A program made the translations under genes and the position numbers. From Burkholderiaceae bacterium (GTDB lineage Bacteria > Pseudomonadota > Gammaproteobacteria > Burkholderiales > Burkholderiaceae_E): a stretch of 64,000 nucleotides of DNA. The stretch's first letter is position 1. Each line of letters starts with the position of its first letter. The notes beneath the pieces were generated by a model. That model worked only from the letters and a program-made list of their open reading frames with translations. It did not search any database and was not told where the DNA came from. Where the stretch lies: positions 62,001-126,000 of the forward strand of contig JAMLIR010000007.1 of the NCBI GenBank assembly GCA_023954045.1. Reading direction: 5' to 3'. This document shows, in pieces, positions 460 to 40,298 of the stretch.

Positions 460-537
460 GAACCGGCGGGCAACGCGTGCGGCCGCTCGGCCGCGTCGCG
501 CGCCACGCTGGCCGGTGACCGCTGCCAGGAGGAGACA

Positions 538-1269: not shown

Positions 1270-1272
1270 GCG

Positions 1273-2814: not shown

Positions 2815-2850
2815 CGCGCCATCCGATTACTGCTTCGGAGAACACGGACA

Positions 2851-4803: not shown

Positions 4804-4813
4804 GAACGCGCAG

Positions 4814-5323
4814 ATGCCGGGCACCGTTGCACGCCGCTGGCTGAGGACGATCGCGTTCGCGCTCTGCGCGGGCGCGCTCGCCGGCGCGGCATCGGCCGCC
4901 GAGCCGGCGGGACGCGTCGCCAAGCCGTCGATTTCGGTCGACCGCTCGACGCAGTGCATCGACAGCCCCGAGGTGATGCGGCGCACGCACATGGACATGC
5001 TCAAGCACCAGCGTGACCGCACCGTGCGCCAGGGCATCCGCGGCGAGAAGGTCAGCCTGAACGGCTGCATCGAGTGCCACGCGGGGCCGGGTGCCGGCGC
5101 CGCAGCCGGAGCGGCGGTCGGCTCGTCGCAGGCGTTCTGCGAGACCTGCCACCGCTACGCGGCGGTCAAGCTCGACTGCTTCGAATGCCACCAGGCGAAG
5201 CCGGCCGGCACGCATCCGGCGCGCTCGCAAGCCGACGGCAGCCCGCAGGCGCGCGCCGCGCAGGCCGCGCAGGCGTTCCTGGACGCGCCGGCGGCCCGGC
5301 CCGCGGCAGGAGAGCGGCGATGA
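4814..5323 (+). CDS. dsrJ: DsrJ, periplasmic trihaem cytochrome c
   Basis: A 169-aa protein with an N-terminal signal or anchor sequence (residues about 8-28, ending ASA-AE). It has three c-type haem motifs: CIECH (85-89), CETCH (109-113) and CFECH (122-126). Cys48, in the STQCID stretch, matches the position of the unusual cysteine axial ligand known in DsrJ. The Ala/Pro-rich tail after residue 130 has no recognisable domain. Its stop overlaps the dsrO start as ATGA. Confidence 0.93.
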   Translation: MPGTVARRWLRTIAFALCAGALAGAASAAEPAGRVAKPSISVDRSTQCIDSPEVMRRTHMDMLKHQRDRTVRQGIRGEKVSLNGCIECHAGPGAGAAAGAAVGSSQAFCETCHRYAAVKLDCFECHQAKPAGTHPARSQADGSPQARAAQAAQAFLDAPAARPAAGERR

Positions 5324-6099
5324 GCGAGCGCGACCGCCCCGACGCCCCGCAGGCGCGCGAAGCCTCGCGTCCCGGCGCCCCGTCGCGACGCGCGATGCTC
5401 GCCGCCGGCACCGCCGCGCTGGCCGGCGTGCTGCTGGCGCCGGGCATCCGCCTGATCGAGATCGCGACCGCGCAGGGCGCCAGGCCCGCCGGCGAGCCTG
5501 CCTCGTCGAAAGTGCGCTGGGGGATGCTGATCGACACCACGCGCTGCTCGACCGACTGCAACGAGTGCGTGAAGGCCTGCAACACCGAGAACGGGCTGTC
5601 GGGCGGCACGCTGCCCACCGATTCGCAGTGGATCCGCAAGGTCGAAATCCGCCACAAGGACACCGGCCGCACGACCAGCGCGCCGGTGATGTGCCAGCAT
5701 TGCGCGCAGCCGCCCTGCGTCGACGTCTGCCCGACCGGCGCGTCGTTCAAGCGCGCCGACGGCATCGTGCTGGTCGACCGGCACACCTGCATCGGCTGCC
5801 GCTATTGCGTGATGGCCTGCCCATACAAGGCGCGCAGCTTCGTGCACGAACCGCTCTCGATGCAGAAACCCGAGGTCCCGCGCGGCAAGGGCTGCGTCGA
5901 GGGCTGCACGATGTGCGTGCACCGCGTCGACCGCGGCCAGCAACCGGCCTGCGCCGACGCCTGCCCCGAGCACGCGATCCTCTTCGGCGACCTGAACGAC
6001 CCGGACAGCGCGATCTCGAAGCGCATTCGCGAGATCGCCACGACCCGGATCCGCGAAGACCTGCGCCTGGACACCGGCGTTCGCTATCACGGAATCTGA
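5320..6099 (+). CDS. dsrO: DsrO, Tat-exported periplasmic iron-sulfur subunit
   Basis: A 259-aa protein. I start it at ATG 5320, which overlaps the dsrJ stop by four bases and follows GGAGAGCGGCG, although the frame is open further upstream. A twin-arginine signal (SRRAMLAAG, about residues 24-32) is followed by a hydrophobic stretch. Four ferredoxin-type cysteine clusters follow: CSTDCNECVKAC, CQHCAQPPCVDVC, CIGCRYCVMAC and CTMCV-(x8)-PACADAC. DsrO works with DsrP and DsrJ on the periplasmic side of the Dsr membrane complex. Confidence 0.95.
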   Translation: MSERDRPDAPQAREASRPGAPSRRAMLAAGTAALAGVLLAPGIRLIEIATAQGARPAGEPASSKVRWGMLIDTTRCSTDCNECVKACNTENGLSGGTLPTDSQWIRKVEIRHKDTGRTTSAPVMCQHCAQPPCVDVCPTGASFKRADGIVLVDRHTCIGCRYCVMACPYKARSFVHEPLSMQKPEVPRGKGCVEGCTMCVHRVDRGQQPACADACPEHAILFGDLNDPDSAISKRIREIATTRIREDLRLDTGVRYHGI

Positions 6100-6103
6100 C
6101 CAC

Positions 6104-7303
6104 ATGCAGGAAGGCATCGCGACCCCTCCTCCGCCGGCGAGCCGCTTCTGGCTCGTCGCCGCGATCGCCGCGGCGCTGGTCGCGCTCGGGCTGGGCGCGG
6201 CGCACTACATGGAGGTCGAGGGCCACATCGTCACCGGGATGAACAACCACGTGGTCTGGGGCCTGCCGCACGTGTTCGCGATCTTCCTGATCGTCGCGGC
6301 CTCGGGCGTGCTCAACGTGGCCTCGATCGGCTCGGTGTTCGGCAAGGCGGTCTACAAGGCGCGCGCACCGCTCTCGGGGCTGCTGTGCCTGGCGATGCTG
6401 GCCGGCGGCCTGATGGTGCTGATGCTCGACCTCGGCCGCCCGGACCGGCTGATCGTCGCCGCGACGCACTACAACTTCACGTCGATGTTCGCCTGGAACG
6501 TGTTCCTGTACTCGGGGATGGCCGCGATCGTCGCAGTCTACCTGTGGACGCTGATGGAACGGCGGATGAACCCGTACTCGAAGAAGGCGGGCCTGGCCGC
6601 GTTCATCTGGCGGCTGGTGCTGACCACCGGCACCGGCTCGATCTTCGGGTTCCTGGTCGCGCGCCAGGCCTACGGGTCGGCGCTGCTCGCGCCGATGTTC
6701 ATCGTGATGTCGTTCGCCTGGGGCCTGGCGGTGTTCCTCGTCGCGCAGGCGGCGGTCTACGCCTGGAACCGGATGACGCTGCCGGCCGACGTCCGTCGGC
6801 GGATGGCCCGGCTGCTCGGCGTATTCGTCGCCGCGACGCTGTACCTGGTCGCCGCGCACCACGTGACCAACCTCTACTTCGCGCGGCAGGTCGACTTCGA
6901 GCACTTCATCCTGGTGAGCGGCGGCATCTACACGCTGCTGTTCTGGGTCGGATACGTGCTCCTCGGCAGCATCGTGCCGCTGCTGCTGGTCTACGGAGGC
7001 GACCCGCCGAGCCCCCGCGCCGCGCTCGCCGCCAGCGTGCTGGTGATCGCGGGCGCGTTCTGCGCGCTGTACGTGTTCATCATCGGCGGGCAGGCGTTCC
7101 CGCTCGAGCTGTTCCCCGGCGCGGTGACGAGTTCCACCTTCTACGACGGGAGAATCGCACCGTACGCGCCCTCGCTGCCCGAGTTGCTGCTCGGCGTCGG
7201 CGGCCTGGCCGCGGCATTCCTGATCACGACGATCGGCGTGCACGTGCTCGACTTCCTGCCGCGCGACCCCGCGCCGTCCCCTGGCCCCGCGGGCGGCGGC
7301 TGA
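6104..7303 (+). CDS. dsrP: DsrP, NrfD/PsrC-like integral membrane subunit
   Basis: A 399-aa, strongly hydrophobic protein with about ten predicted membrane helices (for example LVAAIAAALVALGLGAAH and FAIFLIVAASGVLNVA). This is the NrfD/PsrC family type that handles quinones and partners a periplasmic ferredoxin subunit, here DsrO. It starts four bases after dsrO, and dsrN follows after eight bases. Its length agrees with DsrP proteins. Confidence 0.94.
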   Translation: MQEGIATPPPPASRFWLVAAIAAALVALGLGAAHYMEVEGHIVTGMNNHVVWGLPHVFAIFLIVAASGVLNVASIGSVFGKAVYKARAPLSGLLCLAMLAGGLMVLMLDLGRPDRLIVAATHYNFTSMFAWNVFLYSGMAAIVAVYLWTLMERRMNPYSKKAGLAAFIWRLVLTTGTGSIFGFLVARQAYGSALLAPMFIVMSFAWGLAVFLVAQAAVYAWNRMTLPADVRRRMARLLGVFVAATLYLVAAHHVTNLYFARQVDFEHFILVSGGIYTLLFWVGYVLLGSIVPLLLVYGGDPPSPRAALAASVLVIAGAFCALYVFIIGGQAFPLELFPGAVTSSTFYDGRIAPYAPSLPELLLGVGGLAAAFLITTIGVHVLDFLPRDPAPSPGPAGGG

Positions 7304-7311
7304 GCAACGCA

Positions 7312-8751
7312 ATGAGTCGCTGGCTCGTTTCCGCAGCGCATCGGTCTTCGGGCAAGACGACGGTTTCGATCGGGGTCTGCGCCGCGCTGCGCCGCCGCGG
7401 CCTGTCGGTCCAACCGTTCAAGAAAGGCCCCGACTACATCGACCCGATGTGGCTGGCCCTCGCCGCCGGCCGCGCGTGCCGCAACCTCGACCCGCACCTC
7501 TCGGGCTGGGACGAAGTCGAAGCGGCGTTCCAGCGCCACGCGGCCGGTGCCGATGCGGCGCTCGTCGAAGGCAATCTCGGCCTTCACGACGGGATGGCGG
7601 CCGACGGAAGCGACAGCAACGCCGAACTGGCCCTGCGGCTCGACCTGCCGGTCGTGCTGGTGCTGGATGCGCGCGGCACCTCGCGCGGCATCGCGCCGCT
7701 GGTCCTCGGCTACCAGGCGTTCGAGCCGCGGCTGCGCATCGCCGGCGTGATCCTGAACCGCGTCGGCGGCTCGCGCCACGAGGCGCGCCTTCGCGAGGCG
7801 CTCGAGCGCTACACCGACGTGCCGGTGCTCGGCGCGATCGGCGAGAATCCGAGGCTCGCGATCGTCGAGCGGCACCTCGGTCTGGTGCCCAGCAACGAGG
7901 CGGGCGAGGCGCAGCGGGTCGTCGAGACGCTGGCCGACGCGGTCGCCGGCGGCGTCGCCCTCGACGCGCTGCTCGGCGCCACCGCCGATTCGCCCGCCGC
8001 CGCGTCCGCGCGGCGCGACGCGAAGCCGCTGCCGGCGCGAGCAGCGGCGTCCGCCAGGGACGACGCCGCGCCGCTGCGCATCGGCATCGCGCAGGACGAA
8101 GCGTTCGGCTTCTACTATGCCGACGACCTCGAGGCGTTGCAGGCGGCGGGTGCCGAGCTGGTCGCCTTCGACACGCTGCGCGATGCCGCGCTCCCCGAAG
8201 TCGACGGACTGTTCATCGGCGGGGGTTTTCCCGAGGCGCTCGCAGCGCGGCTGGCCGCCAACGCGCCGCTGCGGCGGGCGCTGCGCGAGCGCATCGAGGC
8301 GGGCCTGCCGGTCTACGCGGAGTGCGGCGGGCTGATGTACCTCGCGCGCTCGATCACGTGGCGCGGCGAGCGCCACGAGATGGTCGGCGCGATCCCGGCG
8401 GACGTCGTGATGCACGATCGCGCGGTCGGCCGCGGCTACGTGACGCTGCAGGAAACCGACGCCTTTCCCTGGCCCGGCGGGCCGCTCGAGAGCGTGCGCG
8501 GACACGAGTTCCATCATTCGGCGCTCGAGAACGCGGCCCCCGATCTCCGCTACGCCTATCGCGTGAAGCGCGGCCACGGCATCGACGGAACGCGCGACGG
8601 CATCGTGCATCGCAACGTGCTGGCCTGCTACGCGCACCTGCGCAGCGTCGGCGGCAACCGCTGGCCGCAGCGCTTCGTCGAGTTCGTCCGCAGCGTCGCG
8701 CAGCCGCCCCGGCGCGCCGAGCCCGCCCTTGACCTCAACGCGTGCCCCTGA
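7312..8751 (+). CDS. dsrN: DsrN, CbiA-type cobyrinate a,c-diamide synthase-like amidase
   Basis: A 479-aa protein. I start it at ATG 7312, where homology begins (SRWLVSAAHRSSGKTT, a P-loop). The ATPase half is followed by a class I glutamine amidotransferase half with the nucleophile motif YAECGGLMYL and a late histidine in GHEFHHS. In dsr operons this protein is known as DsrN and is thought to amidate siroheme for DsrAB. A cobyrinate synthase role is also possible, but no other cobalamin gene is nearby. It overlaps dsrR by one base (TGATG). Confidence 0.93.
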   Translation: MSRWLVSAAHRSSGKTTVSIGVCAALRRRGLSVQPFKKGPDYIDPMWLALAAGRACRNLDPHLSGWDEVEAAFQRHAAGADAALVEGNLGLHDGMAADGSDSNAELALRLDLPVVLVLDARGTSRGIAPLVLGYQAFEPRLRIAGVILNRVGGSRHEARLREALERYTDVPVLGAIGENPRLAIVERHLGLVPSNEAGEAQRVVETLADAVAGGVALDALLGATADSPAAASARRDAKPLPARAAASARDDAAPLRIGIAQDEAFGFYYADDLEALQAAGAELVAFDTLRDAALPEVDGLFIGGGFPEALAARLAANAPLRRALRERIEAGLPVYAECGGLMYLARSITWRGERHEMVGAIPADVVMHDRAVGRGYVTLQETDAFPWPGGPLESVRGHEFHHSALENAAPDLRYAYRVKRGHGIDGTRDGIVHRNVLACYAHLRSVGGNRWPQRFVEFVRSVAQPPRRAEPALDLNACP

Positions 8752-9050
8752 TGATCACCGTCACCCCCGCCGCCGCCCGCCAGATCCTGCTCGCCGCCGA
8801 GAACGCCGGAATCGAGGAACCTTTGCTTCGAGTCGCGGCCCGGTACGACGAAGCCGACGACGACATCGAGTTCGGCATGGGCTTCGACGAGCGCCGCGAG
8901 CAGGACGAGGAGATCGAGTGCGAAGGCGTGATCGTCCTCGTCTCGCCAACCTCGCGCCCCCAGCTCGAGGGCGCCGTGCTCGACTACGTCGAGGTGGAGC
9001 CCGCCGAGTTCCGCTTCGTGTTCAGCCGCGGTCCGCGGCAACAAGACTGA
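8751..9050 (+). CDS. dsrR: DsrR, IscA-like protein without the usual cluster cysteines
   Basis: A 99-aa protein from ATG 8751; a GTG at 8742 is possible. The N-terminus (MITVTPAAARQIL) and the MGFDE stretch match DsrR, an A-type-scaffold-fold protein of dsr operons reported to affect expression of dsr genes. The three cysteines of Fe-S-binding IscA proteins are absent. The only cysteine lies in EIECEGV. It is followed after 18 bases by the siroheme gene. Confidence 0.88.
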   Translation: MITVTPAAARQILLAAENAGIEEPLLRVAARYDEADDDIEFGMGFDERREQDEEIECEGVIVLVSPTSRPQLEGAVLDYVEVEPAEFRFVFSRGPRQQD

Positions 9051-9068
9051 TCCCACCGGAGGTATCCG

Positions 9069-9920
9069 ATGGACATGGTTCCGTTCCCACCGCTCGCCGA
9101 CCCCCGGCTCCCCGACGCCGGGCCCGCACTCGCGCCGGGTGAGGTCGCCCTGGTCGGTACCGGGCCCGGCGACCCCGAGCTGCTGACGCTGAAGGCGCTG
9201 CGCCTGATGCAGCAGGCCGACGTCGTGCTCTACGACAACCTGGTCTCGCCCGAGATCATGGCGCTGGTCGGGCGCGAGTCCCAGCGCATCTACGTCGGCA
9301 AGGAGCGCAACCGCCACACGATGCGCCAGGAGGCGATCAACGACCTGATGGTCGACCTCGCGCGCGCCGGGCACCGGGTGGTCAGGCTCAAGGGCGGCGA
9401 CCCGTTCATCTTCGGCCGCGGCGGCGAGGAGATCGAGACGCTTTCGGCACACGATGTGCACTTCCAGGTCGTCCCCGGCGTCACCGCCGCGGCCGGCGTG
9501 GCGGCCTATGCCGGCATCCCGCTGACGCACCGTGACCACGCGCACGCGTGCGTGCTGGTCACGGGGCATTTGCGCGACGGCACGATGAACCTCGACTGGC
9601 CGGCGCTCGCGCGGCCCGGGCAGACGCTGGTCTGCTACATGGGCTTCCAGGGCCTGGCCGAACTGTGCGCGAAGCTCGCCGAGCACGGCCTGCCCGACTC
9701 CACGCCGGCGGCGATCGTGCAGCAGGGCACCCAGCGCAACCAGCGGGTCGTCACCGGGACGCTGCGCACGCTGCCCGAACTGGCGGCGCGCGCGCAGCTG
9801 GCGCCGCCGACGCTGATCATCGTCGGCGAGGTCGTGCGCCTGCGCGACAAGCTGAAATGGTTCGAGCGCACCCAGGATGCGCCGGCGGAGGCGGCGGCGC
9901 ACGGCGAGCTCGCCGGCTAG
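9069..9920 (+). CDS. cobA: Uroporphyrinogen-III C-methyltransferase (siroheme pathway)
   Basis: A 283-aa SUMT of the CobA/CysG-C-terminal type. It has the glycine-rich [12 protein letters not shown] near the N-terminus, then [34 protein letters not shown] and a YMG segment. It methylates uroporphyrinogen III to precorrin-2, the first step to the siroheme that DsrAB needs. GGAGGTATCCG precedes the ATG. There is no N-terminal CysG-type dehydrogenase/ferrochelatase domain, so those steps must be encoded elsewhere. It ends the + strand dsr run. Confidence 0.93.
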
Positions 9921-9956: not shown

Positions 9957-10670
9957 CTAGCGCGAGTGCACCAGGCGCGCGGGAGGCGCATCCGCGCCTT
10001 CGCGGTCGCCGCGCCCGCCCTCCCCGACCCGGTTCTCGATCGCGAACACCGCGGCCTCGACCCGCGAGGAAAAGCCGAGCTTCGACAGGATGTGCCTGAC
10101 GTGGAGCTTGACGGTGTCGTGACTGATGCCGAGCTCGCGCGCGATGGCCTTGTTGCTCAGGCCGCGCGCCACCAGCGCGAGGATCTCGCGCTCGCGCACC
10201 GTGAGCTGGTCGAGCGAGCTGCCGGGCGCCGCGCGCTGCGGTCCTCCCTCCAGCAGGCCGGCCAGCTTCGCGGTCATGGCCGGCGCGACGACCAGCTCGC
10301 CGCGCGCGGCGCGGGTGATCGCGTCGATGATGTCCTGAGGATCCATGTCCTTGAGCAGGTAACCCCGTGCCCCCATGCGCAATGCCGCGGCGAGGTCCTC
10401 GCGCGAGTCGCTCATCGTGAGGATCACGACCGGCACCTCCGAACCCGCGTCGCGCAGCCCGCGCAGCAGTCGCAATCCGTCGAGTTGCGGCATCCTCAGG
10501 TCGATCACCGCGAGGTCGGGCTTGTGCGTCTGGATCAGGTCGATGCCTTCCTCGGGGTTGCCGGTGGTCGCGACGACCTTCATTCCGGCGCGCAACTCGA
10601 GCAGCTCGCCGAGCCCGCGCCGGCACAGCCCGTGATCGTCGACGAGGGCGACGCGCAGCAGTTCAGCCAT
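9957..10670 (-). CDS. NarL/FixJ-family response regulator
   Basis: A 237-aa regulator. The receiver domain has the acidic pair at residues 11-12, the phosphoacceptor D57 (VIDLRMP) and K near 106 (LLKDMD). A LuxR-type helix-turn-helix lies at about 155-199 (LTVREREILALVARGLSNKA). The C-terminal 25 residues are low-complexity. Its start overlaps the kinase gene upstream by 8 bases, so the two form an operon. Its place between the dsr/siroheme genes and soeABC suggests control of sulfur oxidation, which is inference. It resembles NarL, but no nitrate genes are present. Confidence 0.9.
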   Translation of the reverse strand: MAELLRVALVDDHGLCRRGLGELLELRAGMKVVATTGNPEEGIDLIQTHKPDLAVIDLRMPQLDGLRLLRGLRDAGSEVPVVILTMSDSREDLAAALRMGARGYLLKDMDPQDIIDAITRAARGELVVAPAMTAKLAGLLEGGPQRAAPGSSLDQLTVREREILALVARGLSNKAIARELGISHDTVKLHVRHILSKLGFSSRVEAAVFAIENRVGEGGRGDREGADAPPARLVHSR

Positions 10671-11970
10671 GCGTCACCCCGGTGACCGGCGACTCGCCGG
10701 ACGGGTCGCCCGCAGGAACGCGGACGACGACGCGGGCGCCGCCACCCGGCGCATTCTCGAACATGACCTGCGCGCCGATTGCCTGCGCGCGCTCGCGCAT
10801 GATCTCGAGCCCGAAGCTGGTGCGCGCATTCGCCTGGCCCGTGCAGGCCTGCAGCGCGAAGCCGCAGCCGTCGTCGTGCACGCTGAAGACCACGTCGGGT
10901 CCCTCGCGCTCGACGCGCAGCCGGGCGTTGCGTGCGCCGGAGTGCCGGCGCACGTTCGCCAGCGCTTCCTGCAGGATGTGGAAGGTCTGCACCTCGACGT
11001 CGGCCGACAGGCGCAGCTCGGGAATGCGGCAGTCGAACTCGAGCGCGACGCCGGTGCGCTCATAGAACGTGTCGGCCATCTGCTCGAGCGCGCGATGCAG
11101 GCCCTGGGCGTCCATCCCCGCGCGGAAGTGCGTGATCAGCTCGCGCATGCGCCGGTTCGCGCTGCCGAGCTCGTCGTTGACGTCCTGGCAATACTTCAGG
11201 GCGCGCGGCGTGTCCTGCTGCGAGATCGCGTCCTGCAGCAACGGCATGCGCATGCGCACGAAGGTGAGCGACTGCGCGAGCGAATCGTGCAACTCGCCAG
11301 CGATGGTCTGGCGCTCGTGCACCAGGCTCGACTGGAGGTTCTCGCGCTCGAGCCGCGCATTCTCGAGGGCCAGTCCGAACAGCTGGCCGACCGGGCGCAG
11401 CAGGTGGATCACCTCGCCCCGCAGGCTGTGCACGCCGTCGAAGAACAGCGTGAACACGCCGACCGAGCGTCCCTTGTACTCGAGCGGCACGGCGACCGTG
11501 CCGGTGCACACCTGCTCGAAGAACGTGTCCACGGCGAGCTTGCCGCAGCGCGTCGCGTTCTCGGCCACCCGCACGCCGTCGCCCTGCAGCGCGTCTCCGC
11601 AGACCCCGCACGGGCCGATCAGCGCCTCGCGCGCGAGCACTTCCTCGGGCAGCCCCCAGGCGGCGACCAGGCGCAGCTGGTTGCCTTCGGGGGTCAGCGC
11701 GCGCACCGCGCCGGCCCGCGCGCCAGCCAGCCTGACGACGGTGACGAGAAACGCGTCGAGCATCGACTGCGGCGTCCCGCCGACGCCCGGGGCGCCGGAC
11801 CCAGCCGAGCCCGCGGCCGCAGCCCGCTCGTCCGGACGCTCGGCGCGCCGGTCGACGACGGGCACCACCCGCACGGCCCGGGCGCCGCGCGCACCCGGTT
11901 CGCCCGCGCGCGCCGGCGGCGCGTCGTCCGGCGGCGTGCCCAAAGAGGTTCCCGAACCCGAAGCCTGCAT
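10663..11970 (-). CDS. Soluble NarX-type histidine kinase with cysteine-rich GAF domain
   Basis: A 435-aa protein without membrane segments. A disordered Ala/Gly/Pro-rich N-terminus (1-70) precedes a GAF domain (about 70-205). That domain contains C121-x2-C124, C142 and C155. A HisKA_3 box follows (AGELHDSLAQSL, phosphoacceptor H228), then an HATPase domain with DDGCGF. It should phosphorylate the adjacent NarL-type regulator. Four cysteines in the sensor domain could bind an Fe-S cluster or act as a thiol switch, as known for some oxygen- or redox-sensing kinases; this is inference. It is divergent from soeA. Confidence 0.88.
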   Translation of the reverse strand: MQASGSGTSLGTPPDDAPPARAGEPGARGARAVRVVPVVDRRAERPDERAAAAGSAGSGAPGVGGTPQSMLDAFLVTVVRLAGARAGAVRALTPEGNQLRLVAAWGLPEEVLAREALIGPCGVCGDALQGDGVRVAENATRCGKLAVDTFFEQVCTGTVAVPLEYKGRSVGVFTLFFDGVHSLRGEVIHLLRPVGQLFGLALENARLERENLQSSLVHERQTIAGELHDSLAQSLTFVRMRMPLLQDAISQQDTPRALKYCQDVNDELGSANRRMRELITHFRAGMDAQGLHRALEQMADTFYERTGVALEFDCRIPELRLSADVEVQTFHILQEALANVRRHSGARNARLRVEREGPDVVFSVHDDGCGFALQACTGQANARTSFGLEIMRERAQAIGAQVMFENAPGGGARVVVRVPAGDPSGESPVTGVTHG

Positions 11971-24628: not shown

Positions 24629-26092
24629 ATGTCACGGGCACTGACGGTTTCCAGAGCGGCGCAGCTGGTCGGCGTTTCCAGGGCGCTCCTGCAGCGGATG
24701 ATCCGCGCCGGCGAGCTGGCCCAGTTCGACGGGCTGGTCGAGATCGACGAGCTGCTGCGCGCGTTTCCGCAGGCGAATATCGAGGACTCCGGCTTGCTCG
24801 AGAAGGTCGCCCGGATCCGCGAGGAGTCGTTCGGCCGCCGGGTGCGCGAGCACGTCCTGCCCTCGCCGGAGATCCTGTCGCAGCGCCTGTTCGCGCAGAG
24901 CCAGGAGCTCGCCGAGATGCGCCGGCACCTGCAGGCGTACCACTCGCTCGTGGCCGCGACCATCGAGCGGCTGAACGTCCGTCCGGCCCCTGCGGGCCTG
25001 GCCGACGAGGCGCGCGACATGCTCGAGCGGGGGCTCGCGCGAGTGCTGGGCAGCGAATCCGACAACCGACTCGACGCCATGACCGACATGCTGAAGCTGG
25101 TGTACGCAAACGTGGTTGTCCGGCCCAGCGGACACGAGTTCCTCGTCCAGGGCAACGACAGCATCCTGCAGGCCGGGTTGAAAGCCGGGCTCGGACTGAA
25201 CTACGGTTGCGCGGGCGGCAACTGCGGGTTGTGCAAGGCGCGGGTCGTCTCCGGCGAGACGCGCCGCGTGCTGCACGCCGACTACAGCCTGTCCGAGCCC
25301 GAGCGCGCGCAAGGCTACGTGCTGCTGTGCGCGCACACGGCGCTCGGCGACCTCGTCATCGAGACGCTCGAGGCCGGCAGCCCGGCGGACATCCCGCAAC
25401 AGGAACTGGTCGCCAGGGTGCGCGCGATCCGCCCGCTCGGGCCGAACACGCTGCTGCTGCACCTGCAGGCGCCGCGCAGCGCGCGGCTTCGCTTCCTGGC
25501 CGGCCAGGGCGCCACGCTCGGAATGGCGCACAACGGCGGCGACCTGCAGGCGAGCTGGCCGATCGCGAGTTGCCCCTGCGACGACCGCAACCTTCACTTC
25601 CACGTCGCCCGCGACCCCGGCGACGCGCTCGCCGAGCACCTGTTCTCGGGCGCCGTCGGCGTCGGCGATGCGCTGAACGTGCGCGGGCCCAGCGGCGACT
25701 TCGTGCTCGGCAGCGACGTGCCGCCGCGGGTCGCGTTCCTCGCCTGCGACACCGGCTTCGCTCCGGTCAAGAGCCTGATCGAGCACGCGATGGCGGCCGA
25801 AGCGGTCGAGCGTTTCGCGCTGTACTGGCTCGCCTCGCGCCCCGACGGCCACTACCTCGCGAACCAGTGCGAAGCCTGGGCCGACGCGTTCGACGAGTTC
25901 GGTTACCTCGCAGCCTCCGACGACGACCCCGCGCGCGGCGCATCGGCGCTCGCGAAGCGCGCGCTCGACGACGGCGATCCGGGCGCGAGCCGGTTCTTCG
26001 TCGCCGGCTCGCAGGCTTTCGTCGATGCCGCGATTCGCTGCCTGCGCGACGGCGGCGTGCCCGCGCAGGCGCTGCGCGCATCGGTCTGCTGA
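24629..26092 (+). CDS. HTH / [2Fe-2S] ferredoxin / FAD-NAD reductase fusion
   Basis: A 487-aa protein with three parts. Residues 1-48 resemble an excisionase/MerR-like DNA-binding fold (LTVSRAAQLVGVSRALLQRM). A charged helical linker covers about 50-160. A plant-type [2Fe-2S] domain covers about 165-250, with ligands C194-x4-C199-x2-C202-x31-C234. A ferredoxin-NADP-reductase-like module follows, with an NAD-binding segment AFLACDTGFAPVKSLIEHA. An electron-transfer oxidoreductase with a DNA-binding head could be a redox-responsive regulator, or the head may only be a protein-binding module. It leads a four-gene + strand run. Confidence 0.75.
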   Translation: MSRALTVSRAAQLVGVSRALLQRMIRAGELAQFDGLVEIDELLRAFPQANIEDSGLLEKVARIREESFGRRVREHVLPSPEILSQRLFAQSQELAEMRRHLQAYHSLVAATIERLNVRPAPAGLADEARDMLERGLARVLGSESDNRLDAMTDMLKLVYANVVVRPSGHEFLVQGNDSILQAGLKAGLGLNYGCAGGNCGLCKARVVSGETRRVLHADYSLSEPERAQGYVLLCAHTALGDLVIETLEAGSPADIPQQELVARVRAIRPLGPNTLLLHLQAPRSARLRFLAGQGATLGMAHNGGDLQASWPIASCPCDDRNLHFHVARDPGDALAEHLFSGAVGVGDALNVRGPSGDFVLGSDVPPRVAFLACDTGFAPVKSLIEHAMAAEAVERFALYWLASRPDGHYLANQCEAWADAFDEFGYLAASDDDPARGASALAKRALDDGDPGASRFFVAGSQAFVDAAIRCLRDGGVPAQALRASVC

Positions 26093-26114: not shown

Positions 26115-26744
26115 ATGAGCGACGCACTGAACTTCCTGGTCAAGGCCCGCCCCGAAGCGATGGGCCACTACTTCGCGTTCCTGAAGGACGCGGGCAGGCA
26201 CCTCGATCCCAAGACCCGCAACCTGATCTCGGTGATCACCAAGGTGCACTCGCAGACCGAGCGCGGCCTCAAGCAATACCTGAAGCGGGCCTTGCGCGAG
26301 GGCGCGACGCCGGTCGAGGTGATCGACGCGCTGCTGATGGCATTCCCGGCGCTCGGGCTGGCGAAGATCACCTGGGCGGTCGACGTCATCCTGTCGATGA
26401 ACCTGCCCGGCTTCGACCCCGCGGCGCTCGGCGCCGAGGCGGCCCGCTGGCACGACGTGATGGCCGAGCGGGACCTGCCGAACGCGGGGGCCGTCCGGAT
26501 CCAGTGCGACGGGCGCGCGCTGTTCGTGGCCCGCACCGCGTCGGGCGTGAACGCATACGACAGTCGCTGCCCGCACCAGGGTACGGACATCCCCGAGCTC
26601 GCGCTCGAGGGCGGCACGCTCACCTGTCCGAAGCACGGCTGGGCGTTCGACGTGGCCAGCGGCGACTGCGTGAAGAACGGCACGACGCCGCTGACGCGAT
26701 TCGAGGCGCGCGTCGAAAACGGCCGGGTGCTCGCATACTGGTAG
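26115..26744 (+). CDS. AhpD/carboxymuconolactone decarboxylase-like domain fused to Rieske domain
   Basis: A 209-aa protein from ATG 26115. The N-terminal about 100 residues look AhpD-like (DPKTRNLISVITKVHSQT), but the CxxC redox pair of AhpD is absent. The C-terminal half is a Rieske domain with C152-x-H154-x16-C171-x2-H174 (CPHQGTD and CPKHGW). It has no signal or membrane segment. It starts 22 bases after the reductase fusion, so it is a likely electron-transfer partner. The reaction is unknown. Confidence 0.75.
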   Translation: MSDALNFLVKARPEAMGHYFAFLKDAGRHLDPKTRNLISVITKVHSQTERGLKQYLKRALREGATPVEVIDALLMAFPALGLAKITWAVDVILSMNLPGFDPAALGAEAARWHDVMAERDLPNAGAVRIQCDGRALFVARTASGVNAYDSRCPHQGTDIPELALEGGTLTCPKHGWAFDVASGDCVKNGTTPLTRFEARVENGRVLAYW

Positions 26745-26776: not shown

Positions 26777-27004
26777 ATGCCGTATTACGTGTTCCGGATC
26801 GCGGGCATCGTTGGCCTGCCCGAGCGTCTTGCCGAAGCGCCCAGCTATCGCGAGGCGAAGGCGATCCTGCGCGAACTGCGCGCGCGCGAGGGCGGCGACG
26901 CCGCGCCGATCCGCATGCTGTTCGCGGCCAACGAGATCGAGGCCGCCGACCTGCTGACCCAGCCGCGCGAGCCCGACCCGTCGCTGTACGGCGCGGACGA
27001 CTGA
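26777..27004 (+). CDS. 75-aa protein of unknown function
   Basis: I start it at ATG 26777, after CGGAGGGTTCG; the frame is open further upstream inside the previous gene. The sequence begins MPYYVFRIAGIVGLPERLAE and continues with SYREAKAILRELRAREGG. It is a small alpha/beta protein without cysteines or signal, rich in charged helix. Similar short proteins are common near sulfur-oxidation genes in my memory, but I cannot name the family. It is in the four-gene run. Confidence 0.6.
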   Translation: MPYYVFRIAGIVGLPERLAEAPSYREAKAILRELRAREGGDAAPIRMLFAANEIEAADLLTQPREPDPSLYGADD

Positions 27005-27042: not shown

Positions 27043-27558
27043 ATGGCCCCTCCCGACGAGGACGCATTCCGCCGCCGGCGCGATGCCGTGCTCGGCCACG
27101 CCTGTCCGTTCGAGCGGGCGTTGCTGGCCCGGTGCGCGGCCTGCGGGCTGGCGCGATCGGTGCTGCTGGCCGAGCGCGAGGCGATCGGCTGCCAGGCGCA
27201 AGCGGCAAGCGAGCGCTGCCGCGCCTACCGCGACGAACTGCGCGCCGCGTCCCGCTTCGCGCTGCGCGTCGATGCGTCCGCGCCGTGGCCGTTCTCGAAG
27301 GAAATCCGCCTGCAGTGCGGCGGCCTGATCGGCCTGCGCCAGGCCCTCGACGATGCGGATCCGGATGCCGATGCCGAGGGCCATGTGGATTCCGGTCGAA
27401 CCGGCGCCGGCCCGGCCGCTCCCGCCGCGCCGGTCGAAGACGCAGACGCGCTGCTGCAGCGCGCGCTGAATCGATATGGCAGCGTCGAGGCGCTGCCCTA
27501 CTCGCGCATCATCCGGGCGGTGATTCGCCACGAGCCGCGTCGACGAGCTCCGCGCTGA
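27043..27558 (+). CDS. Unrecognised cysteine-containing 171-aa protein
   Basis: A 171-aa protein with an N-terminal cysteine cluster: C21 in HACPFE, CAAC at 31-34, C50 in IGCQAQ and C59 in SERC. A later QCGG follows. An acidic, Ala/Pro-rich linker and a short C-terminal helix end the protein. The spacing could bind zinc or an Fe-S cluster, which is inference. It begins 38 bases after the 75-aa gene. Its last 50 bases overlap the 3' end of the convergent gene on the other strand. Confidence 0.6.
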   Translation: MAPPDEDAFRRRRDAVLGHACPFERALLARCAACGLARSVLLAEREAIGCQAQAASERCRAYRDELRAASRFALRVDASAPWPFSKEIRLQCGGLIGLRQALDDADPDADAEGHVDSGRTGAGPAAPAAPVEDADALLQRALNRYGSVEALPYSRIIRAVIRHEPRRRAPR

Positions 27559-28588
27559 ATGACTGCGCACCGGCCGCGGCGCCCTGCCTCCAGGCGTCGA
27601 GCATGGCACGGGCCTGTGCCAGCCAGTGTTCGCGCTGCGCCAGCACCGCCTCGGACAGCGCCGACGCGGAGCCCGGCGCTCCCGGTCCGGCGTTGCGCCA
27701 GCGCAGGTATCCGGCACGCAGGTCGGGCGCGAGCAGGCCTCGCATGCCCTCGAGATTGGCGAACCAGAAGTGGATCGACGCCCGCTCGTCGCGCTCGAGC
27801 AGGGTCGGCAGCGTGGACTCGCAGTCGGCCAGCAGGTCGCGGATCGCGCGCGCGACGATCTCGCTGCGGTGGTCGTCGAGCGCGCCGAGCATCTCCTCCC
27901 ACTGCGGGCCGAGCAGCGCGGCGGCCCGGCGTTCGCCCAGCTCGTGCAGGATCAGCGTCTCGGTCTCGGCGGCGGTGATGCGCTCGAGCGCCGCTTCGCG
28001 ATCGTCGTCGACCAGCCAGGCATCGACCGCCGCGCAGAGCCCCTCTGCCGACGGGCGCTGTCGCGACAGCTCGAGGCGCGTACCCAGCCAGCGCCGCAGC
28101 ACGTCGCGACGCACCAGCACCTGGTCGCCGCGGCTCGTGGCCATAGGCGGATTCAGGCCGCGCGCGTGCTCACGCCCGGTGACGATCACCGTCGCGCCTT
28201 CGCGCGCCTGGCACTCCACGCGCTCGGCGAGCACGAATTCGGGCCGCCGGAAGCGCGCGAGCCCCGCTGCATAGACGAGCCCCAGCGAGCCGAGTCGCTC
28301 GTTGGCCGCCGCCTCGTCGAACGCGTCGACGCCCTCGCCGATCGGCAGCGGTGCGAAGCCGGGGTCAGTCTGTCCGGCGAGCGTCTCCCAGTGCGCCTCG
28401 TGGGTCGCAATCCAGCGGCCGACCTCGCCGCGGTCGGGCACCCGGTCGAGCGGCAGGCCGCGCTGCCAGCGGAAAAACTCGCGCATCTGCAGCAGGTAGG
28501 TGCACAGCGAGAGCTCCTGCGCGTGCATCGCGTCGGCGAGGTCGCAGTTGCGCTGGACCGCCGCAGCCAGTTCCTCGATGCCCGGCAT
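27509..28588 (-). CDS. Conserved protein, probably Sfum_1244 family
   Basis: A 359-aa soluble, mostly helical protein. It starts MPGIEELAAAVQRNCDLADA and has SLCTYLLQMREFFRWQRGL near residue 27, which I associate with the Sfum_1244 family. That recognition is from memory and not firm. There is no catalytic motif, signal or membrane segment. It is the last gene of a - strand run with an S24-like protein, a DsrE-type protein, tusA and a DsrC paralogue. It overlaps the + strand 171-aa gene by 50 bases tail to tail. Confidence 0.6.
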   Translation of the reverse strand: MPGIEELAAAVQRNCDLADAMHAQELSLCTYLLQMREFFRWQRGLPLDRVPDRGEVGRWIATHEAHWETLAGQTDPGFAPLPIGEGVDAFDEAAANERLGSLGLVYAAGLARFRRPEFVLAERVECQAREGATVIVTGREHARGLNPPMATSRGDQVLVRRDVLRRWLGTRLELSRQRPSAEGLCAAVDAWLVDDDREAALERITAAETETLILHELGERRAAALLGPQWEEMLGALDDHRSEIVARAIRDLLADCESTLPTLLERDERASIHFWFANLEGMRGLLAPDLRAGYLRWRNAGPGAPGSASALSEAVLAQREHWLAQARAMLDAWRQGAAAGAQSFSAELVDAARGESPPG

Positions 28589-28598
28589 CGGCGCCTGC

Positions 28599-29018
28599 CT
28601 AGGCGACGTAGCGCTTGCTGGCGCGGCGGCGACCCGGCTTGGATTTCTGGATGATCACGCCGCGGACCGCCGACAGGTCGGCGATCGGGATCTCGGGATA
28701 GGCGGGATTGAGCGCGCGCAGCAGCCAACCTCCGGCAGCGTCGCGCGCGAGCTGCCGGAAGATCCATTCGTCTTTGCAGCGCGCGAACACGAACGAGCCG
28801 TCGCCGGCGAGCCCGTCGGGCTCGATCACGATGATCTCGCCCTCGGCGAATTCGGGAAGCATCGAGTCGCCGAGCACCATCAGCGCGAACGACTCGCCGG
28901 ACGAGCAACCGCCGCCCGCATCGTGCCCTTCGGCCGGCCCGTCGGCGCCGCCAGGGCCGAGCGACTCGATGCGGATCGGGAAGACCCGCTTCGAGCCGTC
29001 GGATCCGTGCGCGTCCAA
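28599..29018 (-). CDS. LexA-like S24 peptidase-fold protein without HTH and without catalytic Lys
   Basis: A 139-aa protein whose core matches the LexA/UmuD (S24) fold: GDSMLPEFAEGE with Ser52, then SFVFARCKDEWIFRQL and the closing ALNPAYPEIPI. In active S24 proteins the residue two before the Leu of the last strand of the dyad region is Lys (as in VKRL). Here it is Arg88. There is no DNA-binding domain. A basic tail (KSKPGRRRASKR) ends the protein. Self-cleavage may be lost. It is 10 bases upstream of the Sfum_1244-like gene. Confidence 0.7.
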   Translation of the reverse strand: MDAHGSDGSKRVFPIRIESLGPGGADGPAEGHDAGGGCSSGESFALMVLGDSMLPEFAEGEIIVIEPDGLAGDGSFVFARCKDEWIFRQLARDAAGGWLLRALNPAYPEIPIADLSAVRGVIIQKSKPGRRRASKRYVA

Positions 29019-29025
29019 CCTCGGC

Positions 29026-29496
29026 TCAGATGTAGAGCTGGATGTCGGCCGAGCCGGCGAAGTCGAGGAAAGTCGTAGCGCCGCCGAACTCGATGCCGTC
29101 GATGAACTCCGACGGCTTGAACTCGAACAGGTCGACGGTCATCTGGCAGGCGATGAACTTGACGTCGGCCTCGAGGCACAGTGAGCGCAGCTCTTCGAGC
29201 GAGGCGACGCCCTTGGCCTTCATCTTGTTCTTCATCATCATCGTCGCCATCGCTTCCATGCCGGGCAGCGCCTGCACCAGCACCGGCATCGGCACGGGCA
29301 TCGGCATCGCCGGGTTGGCCAGCGGGCTGATCCTGATGCCGCTCAGGTCCTTGCGCAGCAGCGACAGGCCGTAGAACGTGCAGAACACCTGAACCTCGTA
29401 GCCGAGCGCAGCCGCGGTCGAAGACAGGATCAGCGGCGGGTACGCCCAGTCGAGCGTTCCCTTGGTGGCGATGATCGCCATCTTCTTCGGTTCCAT
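29026..29496 (-). CDS. DsrE2/DsrE3-type sulfurtransferase-like protein
   Basis: A 156-aa protein of the DsrE/F/H-like group. It starts with a beta-strand/loop AIIATKGTLDWAYPPL and has the family stretch FIACQMTVDLF with C117 as likely sulfur acceptor. Two more cysteines are C39 and C107. A Met/Pro-rich hydrophobic segment (NPAMPMPVPMPVLVQALPGM, 61-80) is typical of the DsrE2/E3 branch and may touch the membrane. Such proteins work with TusA in cytoplasmic sulfane-sulfur transfer, and tusA lies next upstream. Confidence 0.85.
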   Translation of the reverse strand: MEPKKMAIIATKGTLDWAYPPLILSSTAAALGYEVQVFCTFYGLSLLRKDLSGIRISPLANPAMPMPVPMPVLVQALPGMEAMATMMMKNKMKAKGVASLEELRSLCLEADVKFIACQMTVDLFEFKPSEFIDGIEFGGATTFLDFAGSADIQLYI

Positions 29497-29559
29497 TCGT
29501 CTCCCTCTTTGTGACTCGCGTTGAAACCCTGTCGACGCCGGCGCGCGAGGCGCGCCCGA

Positions 29560-29787
29560 TTACTTCTTCTTGATCAGGAACACGTAGCTGCCGCCTTCCT
29601 CGGAAGACTGGACCAGCTCGTTGCCGGTCTGCTTGGCGAAGGCCTCCATGTCCTTCACCGAGCCGGAGTCGGTCGACGTGACGCGCAGCACCTGGCCCGA
29701 GCTCAGGTCGTTGAGCGCCTTCTTCGTCTTGATGATCGGCAGCGGGCAGTTCAGGCCGCGCGCGTCGAGTTCCTTGTCGAAATTCAT
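29560..29787 (-). CDS. tusA: TusA sulfur carrier
   Basis: A 75-aa protein from the ATG at 29787; an upstream in-frame ATG at 29829 would add 14 residues. The sulfur-accepting Cys14 lies in the hallmark LNCPLPIIKTKKAL. The tail (YVFLIKKK) is normal. TusA ferries persulfide sulfur from rhodanese-type donors to DsrE-like proteins or toward DsrC and Hdr/Dsr enzymes. It stands between the DsrC paralogue and the DsrE-type gene. Confidence 0.93.
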   Translation of the reverse strand: MNFDKELDARGLNCPLPIIKTKKALNDLSSGQVLRVTSTDSGSVKDMEAFAKQTGNELVQSSEEGGSYVFLIKKK

Positions 29788-29941
29788 CCTCGATACTCCC
29801 TTCGTTGATCGATCGGCGTTCGCCGCCAAGCGCCACGGACGCGTGGCCGCCGGCCAGAGCGTAACCGAGAATTACGCGCGATCGCCGGCGCCGCGTCCAT
29901 ACCCTCGTCGGGTAAGCGCGGCCCCTGCCGACGGCGTACCT

Positions 29942-30274
29942 TCAGTACCCACCCTTGCCGAAGGGCTTCGTCAGGCCGGCGACGCGAGGACCCTGCCGGG
30001 CCGGCTGGTTCGGGAACAGCTCGTAGAGCTTCGTCTTCCAGTCCGTGCCCGGGTGCGACTCCTCGAAGTCCTTGAGCATGTTCCGGAAGTTCGGCGTGTG
30101 GCCGTCCTCCTGGAAACGCTCGCGCAGGTAGGCAACCACCGTCCAGTGGTCGTCGGTGAGTTCGATCCCCTCGGCCTGCGCGATCGCGCGCACCGCGTCC
30201 TCGCTGTAGTCGGGCTCGAGCAGGAAGCCTTCCTCGTCCGCCTCGACTTCGACGCCGTTGATCAGGTACGCCAA
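29942..30274 (-). CDS. DsrC paralogue lacking both sulfur-binding cysteines
   Basis: A 110-aa protein with the DsrC/TusE fold signature: VEVEADEEGFLLEPDYSEDA, DDHWTVVAYLRERF and KLYELFPNQPARQG. The end reads GPRVAGLTKPFGKGGY, where DsrC has QACKIAGLPKPTGCV, so both cysteines are gone. The protein contains no cysteine at all. Family members without these cysteines have been set apart as regulatory sulfur-related proteins. It cannot carry sulfur in the DsrC way. It lies 25 bases after the porin gene on the same strand. Confidence 0.88.
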   Translation of the reverse strand: MAYLINGVEVEADEEGFLLEPDYSEDAVRAIAQAEGIELTDDHWTVVAYLRERFQEDGHTPNFRNMLKDFEESHPGTDWKTKLYELFPNQPARQGPRVAGLTKPFGKGGY

Positions 30275-30299
30275 GGTCCGTCCCTCGTCGTCGGTCCCG

Positions 30300-31538
30300 T
30301 CAGAACCGCCAGCCGAAAGAGGCGCCCAGCGAATTCTGGTCCATGCGGAGGTCGGCCGTGCCGGCGCCCAACGTCGGCGGCAGAGGCCCGCTCACCGTCT
30401 TCTTGAATCCGTGCATGTAGGCGACGCTCAGTTCCTTGCCGCCGCCAAGCTGCCAGGTCGCACCCAGCGTCAGGTGGCTCTCGATCACGCCGGGAGCGAG
30501 GATGTTGAAGAACACCTCGTTCGACGGGATCGGCTGGCGACCGGTGCTGATGCCGCCGCGCAGCGTGAGCTTGTCGTTGACCGCGTAGTCCGCGCCGAGC
30601 TTGAACACGGTCATGTCGCGCCAGCCGAAGCCGGGGCCGCCCTTGGCGCCCAGCGGCGACGCCGAGTTGCCGGTGTCGCCGACGGACGGCACGCCGCTGT
30701 AGTCGATCTGCTGCACGTCTGCGGCGACGGTGAGCCTGGGCGTCGCCTTCACGGCGATGCCCACGCCGTAGTTGGCGGGGATGTCGAAGGCGCCGCCGTC
30801 GGGGAACAGCCCGGCGTACTCCTTGAACTTGCCCATCTTCGTCTTGGTCTGGTACGTCGCGCCGAGCGTCACGGTGTCGCTCAGGCGGCCGGTCCAGCCG
30901 AAGCGCAGTCCCCAGCCCGACGAGGAGTCTTCACCCTTGTTGGTGAGACTGGTCGGATCCGAGGACATCATTGCAAACGGCTGCAGGCCGTACGCCGAGA
31001 AGCGCTGGTGCGCGAGGTTCAGCGAGACGCCGACCGCGTGATCCCGGTTGATCTTGTAGGCCACCGTGGGCGCGATGAACAGCTGGGTCAGGTCGACGCC
31101 GGTCGTCCCGGTCACCCCGAACGCCGAGAACGGCGACTTCTCGTAGGTGGTGTTCATCCCGCCGTTGCCGTAGACGACGACCCCGACCGCGAGATTCGGG
31201 TTGATCATCCGGTTGTAGCCGAAGTCGGGCACGAAGAACATGTCGCGCCCGTTGCCGTCGTAGCTGCCGTTCAGGCCGGCGCCATTGCCGCTGATCTCCG
31301 TCTCGCGATTCGGCATGAACACGTCGAGCCCGAAGTCCATCCGGTTGCCGACGAAGGCCATTCCGGCCGGGTTCGTCGCGGCGGCCATCGCGTCCTGGGG
31401 CAGCGCGATGCCGACGCCGGCCATCCCCTTCGACTTGATCCCGTAACCGTGCGAGAAGTAGCCGTTGGTCGCATGACCGAGGGCAGGTGCCAGGCAACCG
31501 GCGACCACCAGCGCAATTTGACTGATCCTGAACTTCAC
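30300..31538 (-). CDS. FadL/TodX-type outer-membrane channel
   Basis: A 412-aa protein. I start it at GTG 31538, after GGGAGACATC, which gives a clean signal peptide (FRISQIALVVAGCLAPALGHA) rather than the longer ORF. The mature start ATNGYFSHGYG and the DAMAAATNPAGMAF element are FadL-family hallmarks; the end is RWDF-like (GASFGWRF), an outer-membrane insertion signal. Members import hydrophobic compounds. Standing first in a run with tusA and dsrE-like genes, this one might admit hydrophobic sulfur compounds, which is inference. Confidence 0.88.
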   Translation of the reverse strand: MKFRISQIALVVAGCLAPALGHATNGYFSHGYGIKSKGMAGVGIALPQDAMAAATNPAGMAFVGNRMDFGLDVFMPNRETEISGNGAGLNGSYDGNGRDMFFVPDFGYNRMINPNLAVGVVVYGNGGMNTTYEKSPFSAFGVTGTTGVDLTQLFIAPTVAYKINRDHAVGVSLNLAHQRFSAYGLQPFAMMSSDPTSLTNKGEDSSSGWGLRFGWTGRLSDTVTLGATYQTKTKMGKFKEYAGLFPDGGAFDIPANYGVGIAVKATPRLTVAADVQQIDYSGVPSVGDTGNSASPLGAKGGPGFGWRDMTVFKLGADYAVNDKLTLRGGISTGRQPIPSNEVFFNILAPGVIESHLTLGATWQLGGGKELSVAYMHGFKKTVSGPLPPTLGAGTADLRMDQNSLGASFGWRF

Positions 31539-31639
31539 GATGTCTCCCACAGCCTTGTTGTCGTCATCGGCGCGAGGCCACTCCCCGCGACCGCCGTCCT
31601 GCATGTTCGGGCGGCGCCCTCGAGGCGTCCATAACCCTC

Positions 31640-31670
31640 ATGATAGCTATGTTATTACCTTAAAGGGGTA
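31640..31670 (-). promoter_or_regulatory. Probable promoter and inverted repeat upstream of the FadL-tusA run
   Basis: The gap between the porin start and the acylphosphatase end has an AT-rich block. Read on the - strand it has TACCCCTTTAAGGTA (31670-31656), an inverted repeat whose first seven bases match the NarL-type heptamer TACYYMT. A -10-like TATCAT follows at 31645-31640. The repeat lies where a -35 box would be, as expected for an activator-dependent promoter. By-eye call. Confidence 0.4.
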
Positions 31671-36421: not shown

Positions 36422-36431
36422 CGTCCGTTCC

Positions 36432-39515: not shown

Positions 39516-39519
<4 letters not shown>
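38182..39519 (-). CDS. sufD: SufD, Fe-S scaffold subunit
   Basis: A 445-aa protein from the ATG at 39519, chosen because it overlaps the sufC stop by four bases; the far longer frame upstream is a shadow of sufBC. It contains the SufB/SufD core ([38 protein letters not shown], and the [11 protein letters not shown] motif near the end). With SufB and SufC it forms the assembly complex. Confidence 0.93.

Positions 39520-40298
<779 letters not shown>

Follow-up and report, generated by a model that had tools for sequence, protein, structure and literature searches.

A run of six genes joining a FadL-type channel, TusA, DsrE2 and a cysteine-free DsrC: a candidate accessory set of the oxidative dsr regulon

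The window analysed here is a stretch of 64,000 nucleotides from a Burkholderiaceae bacterium, positions 62001-126000 of contig JAMLIR010000007.1 (C48), in an assembly of 4.02 Mb and 50 contigs. It carries a run of six open reading frames (ORFs), all on the - strand and separated by gaps of 25, 154, 63, 7 and 10 bases. ORF and family scans confirmed the ORFs, strand, coordinates and gaps reported by a first-pass annotation of this DNA. Starting from the first gene of the run they are:

30300..31538, - strand: FadL/OMPP1-type outer-membrane channel, first gene of the run (PF03349, FadL/Toluene_X, 107.5 bits, cut-off 29.7)
29942..30274, - strand: cysteine-free DsrC-like protein of the KGGY subfamily, C-terminus FGKGGY, TTG start (PF04358, 106.6 bits)
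29560..29787, - strand: TusA sulfurtransferase with the CPxP cysteine C14 (PF01206, 89.1 bits)
29026..29496, - strand: DsrE2 sulfur carrier (NF047629, 277.7 bits, cut-off 210)
28599..29018, - strand: S24 protein, similar to the C-terminal domain of LexA/CI, TTG start (PF00717, Peptidase_S24, 58.7 bits)
27509..28588, - strand: Sfum_1244 protein, i.e. Pfam DUF6866, of unknown function (NF045620, 336.8 bits, cut-off 150)

The fourth protein had been described as a DsrE-type sulfur carrier; the family was right, and the NF047629 match refines it to DsrE2. The dN/dS ratios of the six genes, each compared with up to five relatives, range from 0.035 to 0.44 across 25 pairwise comparisons (0.17-0.33 for fadL, 4 pairs). 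Scans for sigma-70 promoters and for terminator-like sites returned 0 (0.4 expected) and 2 (1.9 expected) respectively.

The run sits inside an oxidative-dsr island. The window starts with the tail of a dsr cluster, followed by a molybdopterin oxidoreductase set, sat and aprBA; dsrA lies outside the window at C48:58598-59848, about 30 kb from the run.

124..9920, + strand: dsr cluster tail, with dsrC, M, K, L, J, O, P, N and two further genes, DsrM-, DsrL- and CobB-like genes included (DsrK 574.8 bits; the others by similarity and position)

The names dsrJOP, dsrR, dsrS and soe are presumptive, assigned by position.

The distribution of the genes was followed in a relatives set of 101 genomes, own included, 17 of which are dsrA+ (dsrA scores above the cut-off in 15; the other two are G073, with two copies and in pieces, and G029, partial). 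KGGY DsrC, called at 145 bits or more with a match through the last model position, is present in 18 genomes: 17/17 dsrA+ and 1/84 dsrA- (G008). The KGGY C-terminus was read in 17 of these 18, G015 being assigned by score. The S24 protein, called at E <= 1e-38 (weaker matches in G078 and G010 fall outside), is found in 16 of the 17 dsrA+ genomes, G096 being the exception, and in 1/84 dsrA- (again G008). For Sfum_1244 the figures are 14/17 and 1/84, and for DsrE2 17/17 (in two pieces in G015) versus 2/84 over the cut-off. Each of these four families co-occurs with dsrA at a Fisher p <= 1.9e-13, for genomes that are related, include our own and are not independent. Across 397 genomes sampled from the phylum, with our own among them, Sfum_1244 exceeds the cut-off in 4 of the 39 dsrA+ genomes (3/38 without own) and in 0/358 others, a weak match in G474 being uncounted; it thus marks a subset of dsr lineages. 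The link to sulfur oxidation, proposed on gene content, is therefore upheld both by the position of the run in a dsr/apr/sat island and by four families that track dsrA. Judged by this distribution, the cysteine-free DsrC and the S24 protein are general dsr companions.

The gene order is a different matter. Sfum_1244 occurs in 15 of the 101 genomes, ten of which belong to the window's family, and in eight of these ten (own, G004, G005, G008, G013, G014, G029 and G059) the six genes stand in order, Sfum_1244 being cut at a contig end in G004 and fadL and Sfum_1244 carrying frame breaks in G005. The exceptions are G012, without fadL, and G015, split by contig ends. We then consider the named genomes, where a scan for Sfum_1244 relatives (best 80 of 513) returned mostly beta- and gammaproteobacteria, including Thiobacillus, Rhodocyclaceae, Sulfuricella and Thioalkalivibrio. 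Eleven of the 80 loci (L085-L094, L107) show the window-type arrangement. Elsewhere the run is found as two units: fadL-tusA-dsrE2, and a dsr satellite composed of Cas6-like, DsrC-like, c13, TauD-like, ferredoxin reductase (FdFNR), S24-like, o69, o171 and Sfum_1244 genes, all of which lie on one strand in L122, L156 and L191 (the last from G301, outside the 80 named loci). DsrE2 occurs in only 4 of the 69 named loci lacking the window-type arrangement, so that tusA-dsrE2 forms a separate unit there. Thus the six-family combination put forward by the first-pass annotation holds in part: compared across genomes with and without dsr, the order is kept, and is not random, within one Burkholderiales family, but the single block is not seen elsewhere and gives way to two separate units. 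The combination is a local, lineage-specific join. One of the eleven loci, L086 (CAADGM010000159.1), is a 3-kb contig labelled planctomycete that carries the family-type DsrC-TusA-DsrE2-S24-Sfum_1244 order with a Sfum_1244 identity of 83%; it is probably mis-binned.

Our preferred reading, with a probability of about one half, is that the run would be an accessory set of the dsr regulon made by joining two dsr-linked units.

The DsrC-like protein was examined at the positions on which sulfur carriage depends. Where DsrC ends in G-C-V or G-C-I, the subfamily ends in KGGY (27/27). Cysteine is absent in 27/27 members from the penultimate position (Cys111 of A. vinosum); at the second position (Cys100, a cysteine typical of dsrAB organisms) it is found in 3/27, and the window protein has a proline. 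The claim that this protein lacks both DsrC cysteines is thus right, and its sequence holds no cysteine at all. P61, N62, R64 and K107-G-G-Y110 are invariant in the 23 aligned members. In a tree of rows of 90-150 aa (L111 and L056 are outside this range, and the copies L055 and L060-L069 were set aside) the 26 KGGY rows fall on one side of a branch supported at 96/87, versus 13 canonical DsrC and three rows of a third type. The structure model of the KGGY protein has a pLDDT of 91.4, with the last four residues below 50, and all 8 Foldseek hits at E <= 0.001 are DsrC-family structures, 1yx3 being the first (E 1.0e-7). The protein therefore has the fold of the sulfur carrier but neither Cys111 nor Cys100. 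LexA chains follow the DsrC hits only at E >= 0.9, which is not significant, and a split LexA-like regulator made of the DsrC-like and S24 proteins was rejected.

According to an excerpt of PMC3397948, the penultimate cysteine of DsrC is strictly conserved and required for DsrEFH binding. On that basis a cysteine-free DsrC is not expected to accept sulfur from DsrEFH, and a non-carrier role is reasonable. The loss of the C-terminal cysteine in 27/27 members and their separate clade agree with such a role, already suggested by the first-pass annotation. Since it keeps the fold of DsrC together with a flexible C-terminal tail but has no cysteine for sulfur carriage, the protein probably docks and tunes. 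The tail could also be viewed as a masked Gly-Gly carrier end, in which the tyrosine is lost and a thiocarboxylate then formed, as in ThiS/MoaD-type carriers. The invariant K-G-G-Y (23/23) and the predicted flexibility of the tail would suit this idea. We nevertheless regard it as very improbable, the fold being that of DsrC and no activating enzyme or trimming peptidase being recognised among the annotated neighbours.

DsrC proteins without cysteines are not confined to cellular genomes. Among 13 viral contigs with a DsrC relative, 12 show a G-C-V end and one (L225), which carries other genes as well, is of the KGGY type: its cysteine-free protein, at L225:2974-3315 (IMGVR_UViG_3300032087_002997), ends in SGLPESRRKGGY. 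Five phage DsrC proteins with neither cysteine motif are reported in an excerpt of PMC8190135; the likeness to the KGGY protein is one of description, DsrC family without cysteines, the KGGY status of those five aside. A third DsrC type is encoded in the genome at L021:11822-12160 (C48:53822-54160). It keeps one cysteine (KQACKIAG), ends in PRVWSTG and forms its own clade (100/100) with two relatives. The open-licence literature returned nothing on DsrC-like proteins lacking cysteine in a dsrAB context, and nothing related on RspA with DsrC. There is reportedly work on A. vinosum DsrC binding DNA, and a review is said to discuss DsrC homologues without cysteines; the KGGY family may have been noticed earlier by others.

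The linkage of FadL with TusA and DsrE2, another element of the first-pass annotation, is well seen across genomes. In 16 of the 17 genomes where both places are known, FadL and DsrE2 are no more than 14 kb apart, and in 12 they are within about 1 kb. Nine of the 17 belong to other families, with 8/9 within 14 kb. This count leaves out G283 (DsrE2 not sought) and G015 (outside the FadL search); G012 and G002 gave no FadL match. The residues expected of a relay are also conserved: C14, P15 and P17 of TusA in at least 92% of 29 rows, C117 of DsrE2 in 26/26 and C107 in 23/26 rows. The compounds usually associated with FadL-family channels are fatty acids and toluene-like molecules. FadL might then import a hydrophobic carbon compound and TusA-DsrE2 meet a biosynthetic sulfur need, neither taking part in dsr-type oxidation, in keeping with the Pfam name Toluene_X and with the DsrE2 of G002, which is dsrA-. 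This seems improbable to us because the channel gene, the sole PF03349 match in the genome, adjoins DsrE2, because the linkage recurs outside the family and because fadL shares a cis-element with the cas6-dsrA gap.

This element was found by alignment. Conserved blocks appear in the dsrC-like/tusA gap and upstream of fadL (six genomes), and a common palindrome, in summary form TACCC-N5-GGGTA, also in the gap between dsrA and a cas6 gene (five genomes), where a small ORF of about 75 codons separates it from cas6. Pattern scans gave, for the two copies in the window:

31626..31670 (C48:93626-93670), - strand: fadL upstream element, palindrome TACCC-N5-AGGTA then GGGTTATGGACG
29894..29914 (C48:91894-91914), - strand: tusA upstream element, TACCC-N5-GGGTATGGACG

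Genome-wide, the full pattern TACC-N7-GGTA-N(0-30)-TGGACG matches just three times, once ahead of fadL, once ahead of tusA and once between cas6 and dsrA. In ten cluster-bearing genomes of the family 23 of 26 matches are at those three places (the fadL-side site of G015 being placed by distance), while ten genus members without the cluster have 3 matches in all; a reversed control pattern has 27 over the 20 genomes. Beyond the family, a first scan of 91 loci gave 6 matches to TACC-N7-GGTA, one of them at most 400 bases upstream of a labelled gene, and 5 to TACC-N8-GGTA, none near labelled genes; of the 48, 5 and 4 matches to control palindromes, 3, 0 and 0 respectively were close to a labelled gene. 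TACCC-N3-6-GGGTA in 99 loci (1.5 Mb) has 7 matches: four fall between cas6 and dsrA, a fifth precedes cas6 in L122 and two are elsewhere. Three control palindromes have 5, 1 and 2; the set is not random, cas6-dsrA fragments having been added to it for the cas6-dsrA question. The tusA element likely marks a second promoter region inside the run, which suggests two promoters and not one.

A candidate reader of the element is encoded next to the dsr tail:

9957..11763, - strand: NarL-like response regulator (9957-10670) and NarQ/X-like GAF histidine kinase (10663-11763), both below the curated NarL and NarQ cut-offs

NarL-family sites are inverted TACYYMT-like heptamers. The palindrome TACC-N7-GGTA may resemble such a site, its spacing differing by one base. 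Seven of the 69 other named loci have a similar pair in the vicinity of Sfum_1244, and the two-component system is plausibly a regulator of the shared element.

The six genes could also be incidental neighbours, gathered in a sulfur island without joint function, as would agree with a block confined to one family and made of units that are separate elsewhere. We hold this to be unlikely: order and spacing are conserved, the families co-occur with dsrA, and one shared element recurs at either end of the run as well as next to dsrA.

The gene divergent from dsrA deserves attention in its own right. It encodes a Cas6/Cmx6-family protein (L021:15480-16121, C48:57480-58121, outside the window; TIGR02807 134 bits, cut-off 98.85; PF09559 174 bits). 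PF09559 is present in 17 of the 101 genomes, which are exactly the 17 dsrA+ (0/84 dsrA-). In all 17, cas6 and a copy of dsrA point away from each other, their matches 485-812 bases apart; the second dsrA copy of G073 is without cas6. Outside the window's family the KGGY end is present in 8/8 dsrA+ genomes, each time beside a Cas6-family gene, and in all 15 loci holding both genes, as in 8/8 further genomes, they are close and on one strand. Within the family, some 34 kb separate cas6 from the KGGY gene, which there belongs to the six-gene run. A glycine-rich loop of Cas6 is conserved across 22 rows, and a TusA-like gene adjoins cas6 in several loci. From these facts one may imagine an RNA-directed arm, in which KGGY DsrC and the Cas6-family protein, perhaps with the second TusA-like protein, act on RNA, possibly the dsr messenger, in a Tus-like pathway. 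RNA cleavage is doubtful, however, since none of the histidines reaches 90% conservation over the 22 Cas6 rows; moreover the KGGY protein lacks a cysteine from which sulfur could be passed on, and no thiouridylase was recognised near the genes. Such an arm is therefore not likely, though we rank it above the other alternatives. The open-licence papers examined on Cas6, dsrA and sulfur oxidation concern CRISPR, in the excerpts at hand.

The S24 protein shares with LexA, UmuD and lambda CI the C-terminal domain profile and the serine, but differs from them at the catalytic lysine. C38, S52 and R88 are each present in 46/46 homologues, and Arg88 falls in the catalytic lysine column (matched through the lambda CI alignment, in which one chain is named K192A), so the loss of this lysine noted by the first-pass annotation is general and the Ser-Lys dyad of self-cleaving proteins is replaced by Ser-Arg. 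The residue numbering beyond that chain name is our assumption. Family scans detected no DNA-binding domain in it, and the part in sensing or regulation proposed by the first-pass annotation is hypothetical. Decay of the gene was rejected on the residues invariant in 46 homologues and by dN/dS values of 0.20-0.39 in five pairs. S24 occurs in 26 of the 69 named loci without the window-type arrangement, always on the Sfum_1244 strand, usually with o69 and often with o171 between. For Sfum_1244 the structure model (pLDDT 93.6) has no match at E <= 0.001 in the PDB and none in a viral library, and searching PDB sequences by profile turned up just 7 chains, all of them weak and unrelated matches (best E 0.0014). 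Residues invariant in its 52 sequences include C15, C29, E140, H215, E216, E219, R247, R250, D251 and D255. No paper on Sfum_1244 or DUF6866 was found in the open-licence literature.

Partners missing from the first-pass annotation also belong to the picture: the Cas6-like, TauD-like, ferredoxin reductase, o69 and o171 proteins and the NarL-type regulator. In the window four satellite genes lie on the + strand and converge on Sfum_1244:

24629..26092, + strand: 2Fe-2S ferredoxin/reductase (FdFNR), on the Sfum_1244/S24 strand in other genera
26115..26744, + strand: CMD-Rieske fusion (PF00355 and PF02627)
26777..27004, + strand: o69, small protein of 75 aa, usually adjoining S24/Sfum_1244 (44/80 named loci; no family match)
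27043..27558, + strand: o171, with five conserved cysteines (39/80 named loci)

The cysteines of o171 (C21, C34, C50, C59 and C92) are present in at least 92% of 43 rows, and at its 3' end the gene shares 50 bases with Sfum_1244, which is encoded on the other strand. The ferredoxin reductase may bind DNA, given a weak helix-turn-helix match of the excisionase type at its N-terminus, where TIGR01764 (E 7.7e-4) and HTH_17 (E 3.8e-4) both stay below cut-off. In Thiobacillus-type loci (L099, L106, L113-L117, L130, L132, L164 and others) S24-o69-o171-Sfum_1244 is preceded by c40 and c16, both without family match, a DUF2201 VWA protein and a MoxR-like AAA ATPase; these last two suggest a pair of chaperones that load a metal or cofactor. 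Downstream of the run, at 35846-42264 of the window, is a cluster for SUF-type Fe-S assembly, and IscU/SufU homologues are found in the corresponding neighbourhood of several family genomes.

Taken as an accessory set of the dsr regulon, the run could work as follows. FadL would admit hydrophobic zero-valent sulfur species through the outer membrane. TusA and DsrE2 would pass cytoplasmic sulfane sulfur towards DsrEFH, DsrC and DsrAB, roles assigned from published rhd-tusA-dsrE2 work, as excerpted (PMC4175335). KGGY DsrC would probably dock on DsrC partners or on nucleic acid and tune the flux. The S24, Sfum_1244, ferredoxin reductase, CMD-Rieske, o69 and o171 proteins might form a redox-linked accessory module, and the TACCC-N5-GGGTA element, plausibly read by the NarL-type two-component system beside dsr, would tie together fadL, tusA and the cas6-dsrA region. 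In this scheme the identities of the genes, their kept order, the co-occurrence with dsrA and the common element are observed, whereas what FadL carries, which way sulfur flows, the tuning and the choice of regulator are inferred.

Several observations weigh against this reading. The six-gene block is found in none of the five other-family genomes with Sfum_1244 (G073, G079, G087, G092, G094), and G012 lacks a FadL match within the family. FadL is about 32 kb from DsrE2 in G301. DsrE2 exceeds the cut-off in the dsrA- genome G002, with matches below it in G069, G088 and G098. No rhodanese gene was seen in the run (six genes and four neighbours scanned). G008 holds the run without detectable dsrA or close DsrL (weak hits only for the latter); its contig starts just before the run and ends before the dsr position, and the absence of dsr is either a binning gap or a real loss. 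Finally, the full cis-pattern is absent from G029 and limited to the cas6-dsrA copy in G059, and outside the family the exact palindrome (TACCC-N4/5-GGGTA) is present in 4 of 8 dsrA+ cas6-dsrA gaps.

Compared with known systems, the run is close to the rhd-tusA-dsrE2 relay of the A. vinosum type, with tusA beside dsrE2, conserved active cysteines and a Dsr link; it differs by having no rhodanese and by the addition of FadL, a cysteine-free DsrC, S24 and Sfum_1244. Some relay clusters consist of tusA-dsrE2 only, and DsrE2A has two strictly conserved cysteines, according to the same excerpt (PMC4175335), and two membrane helices according to one of PMC12998232. The latter also describes the YTD cluster of sulfur disproportionators, which resembles the run in combining tusA, a dsrE relative and uncharacterised genes; a YTD-type cluster was dropped as no yedE was found among the six genes and four neighbours scanned. 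Among the matches listed, open-licence papers on sulfur oxidation, dsrE2 or tusA did not mention FadL. KGGY DsrC keeps the fold and family profile of the DsrC/TusE carriers, unlike which it lacks both functional cysteines, carries the signature P61-N62-x-R64 and forms a separate clade. Several DsrC paralogues in one dsr organism are also known from A. vinosum (Alvin_0028, 0345, 0732 and 1508, in an excerpt of PMC3368242), a comparison by presence, C-termini aside.

A broader proposal, which we make tentatively, is that oxidative dsr of beta- and gammaproteobacteria has an overlooked control arm. It would consist of KGGY DsrC and a repurposed Cas6-family RNA-binding protein, divergent from dsrA under a shared palindrome, with the Ser-Arg S24 protein as a companion; the window's lineage would have moved the DsrC into a sulfur-import operon.

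The entry of sulfur into the cell and the switching or tuning of the oxidative dsr pathway are poorly known, and the locus offers handles on both: a channel that is the only PF03349 protein of its genome, a DsrC paralogue incapable of cysteine sulfur carriage yet present in each of the 17 dsrA+ genomes, a shared palindrome and its candidate two-component reader, and the Ser-Arg S24 and Sfum_1244 families that track dsrA. It also carries a warning, namely to check the C-terminus before reading DsrC-family genes as sulfur carriers. In distribution, the cysteine-free DsrC subfamily and its putative Cas6-family partner go together with oxidative dsrA throughout the set's 17 dsr-bearing genomes.

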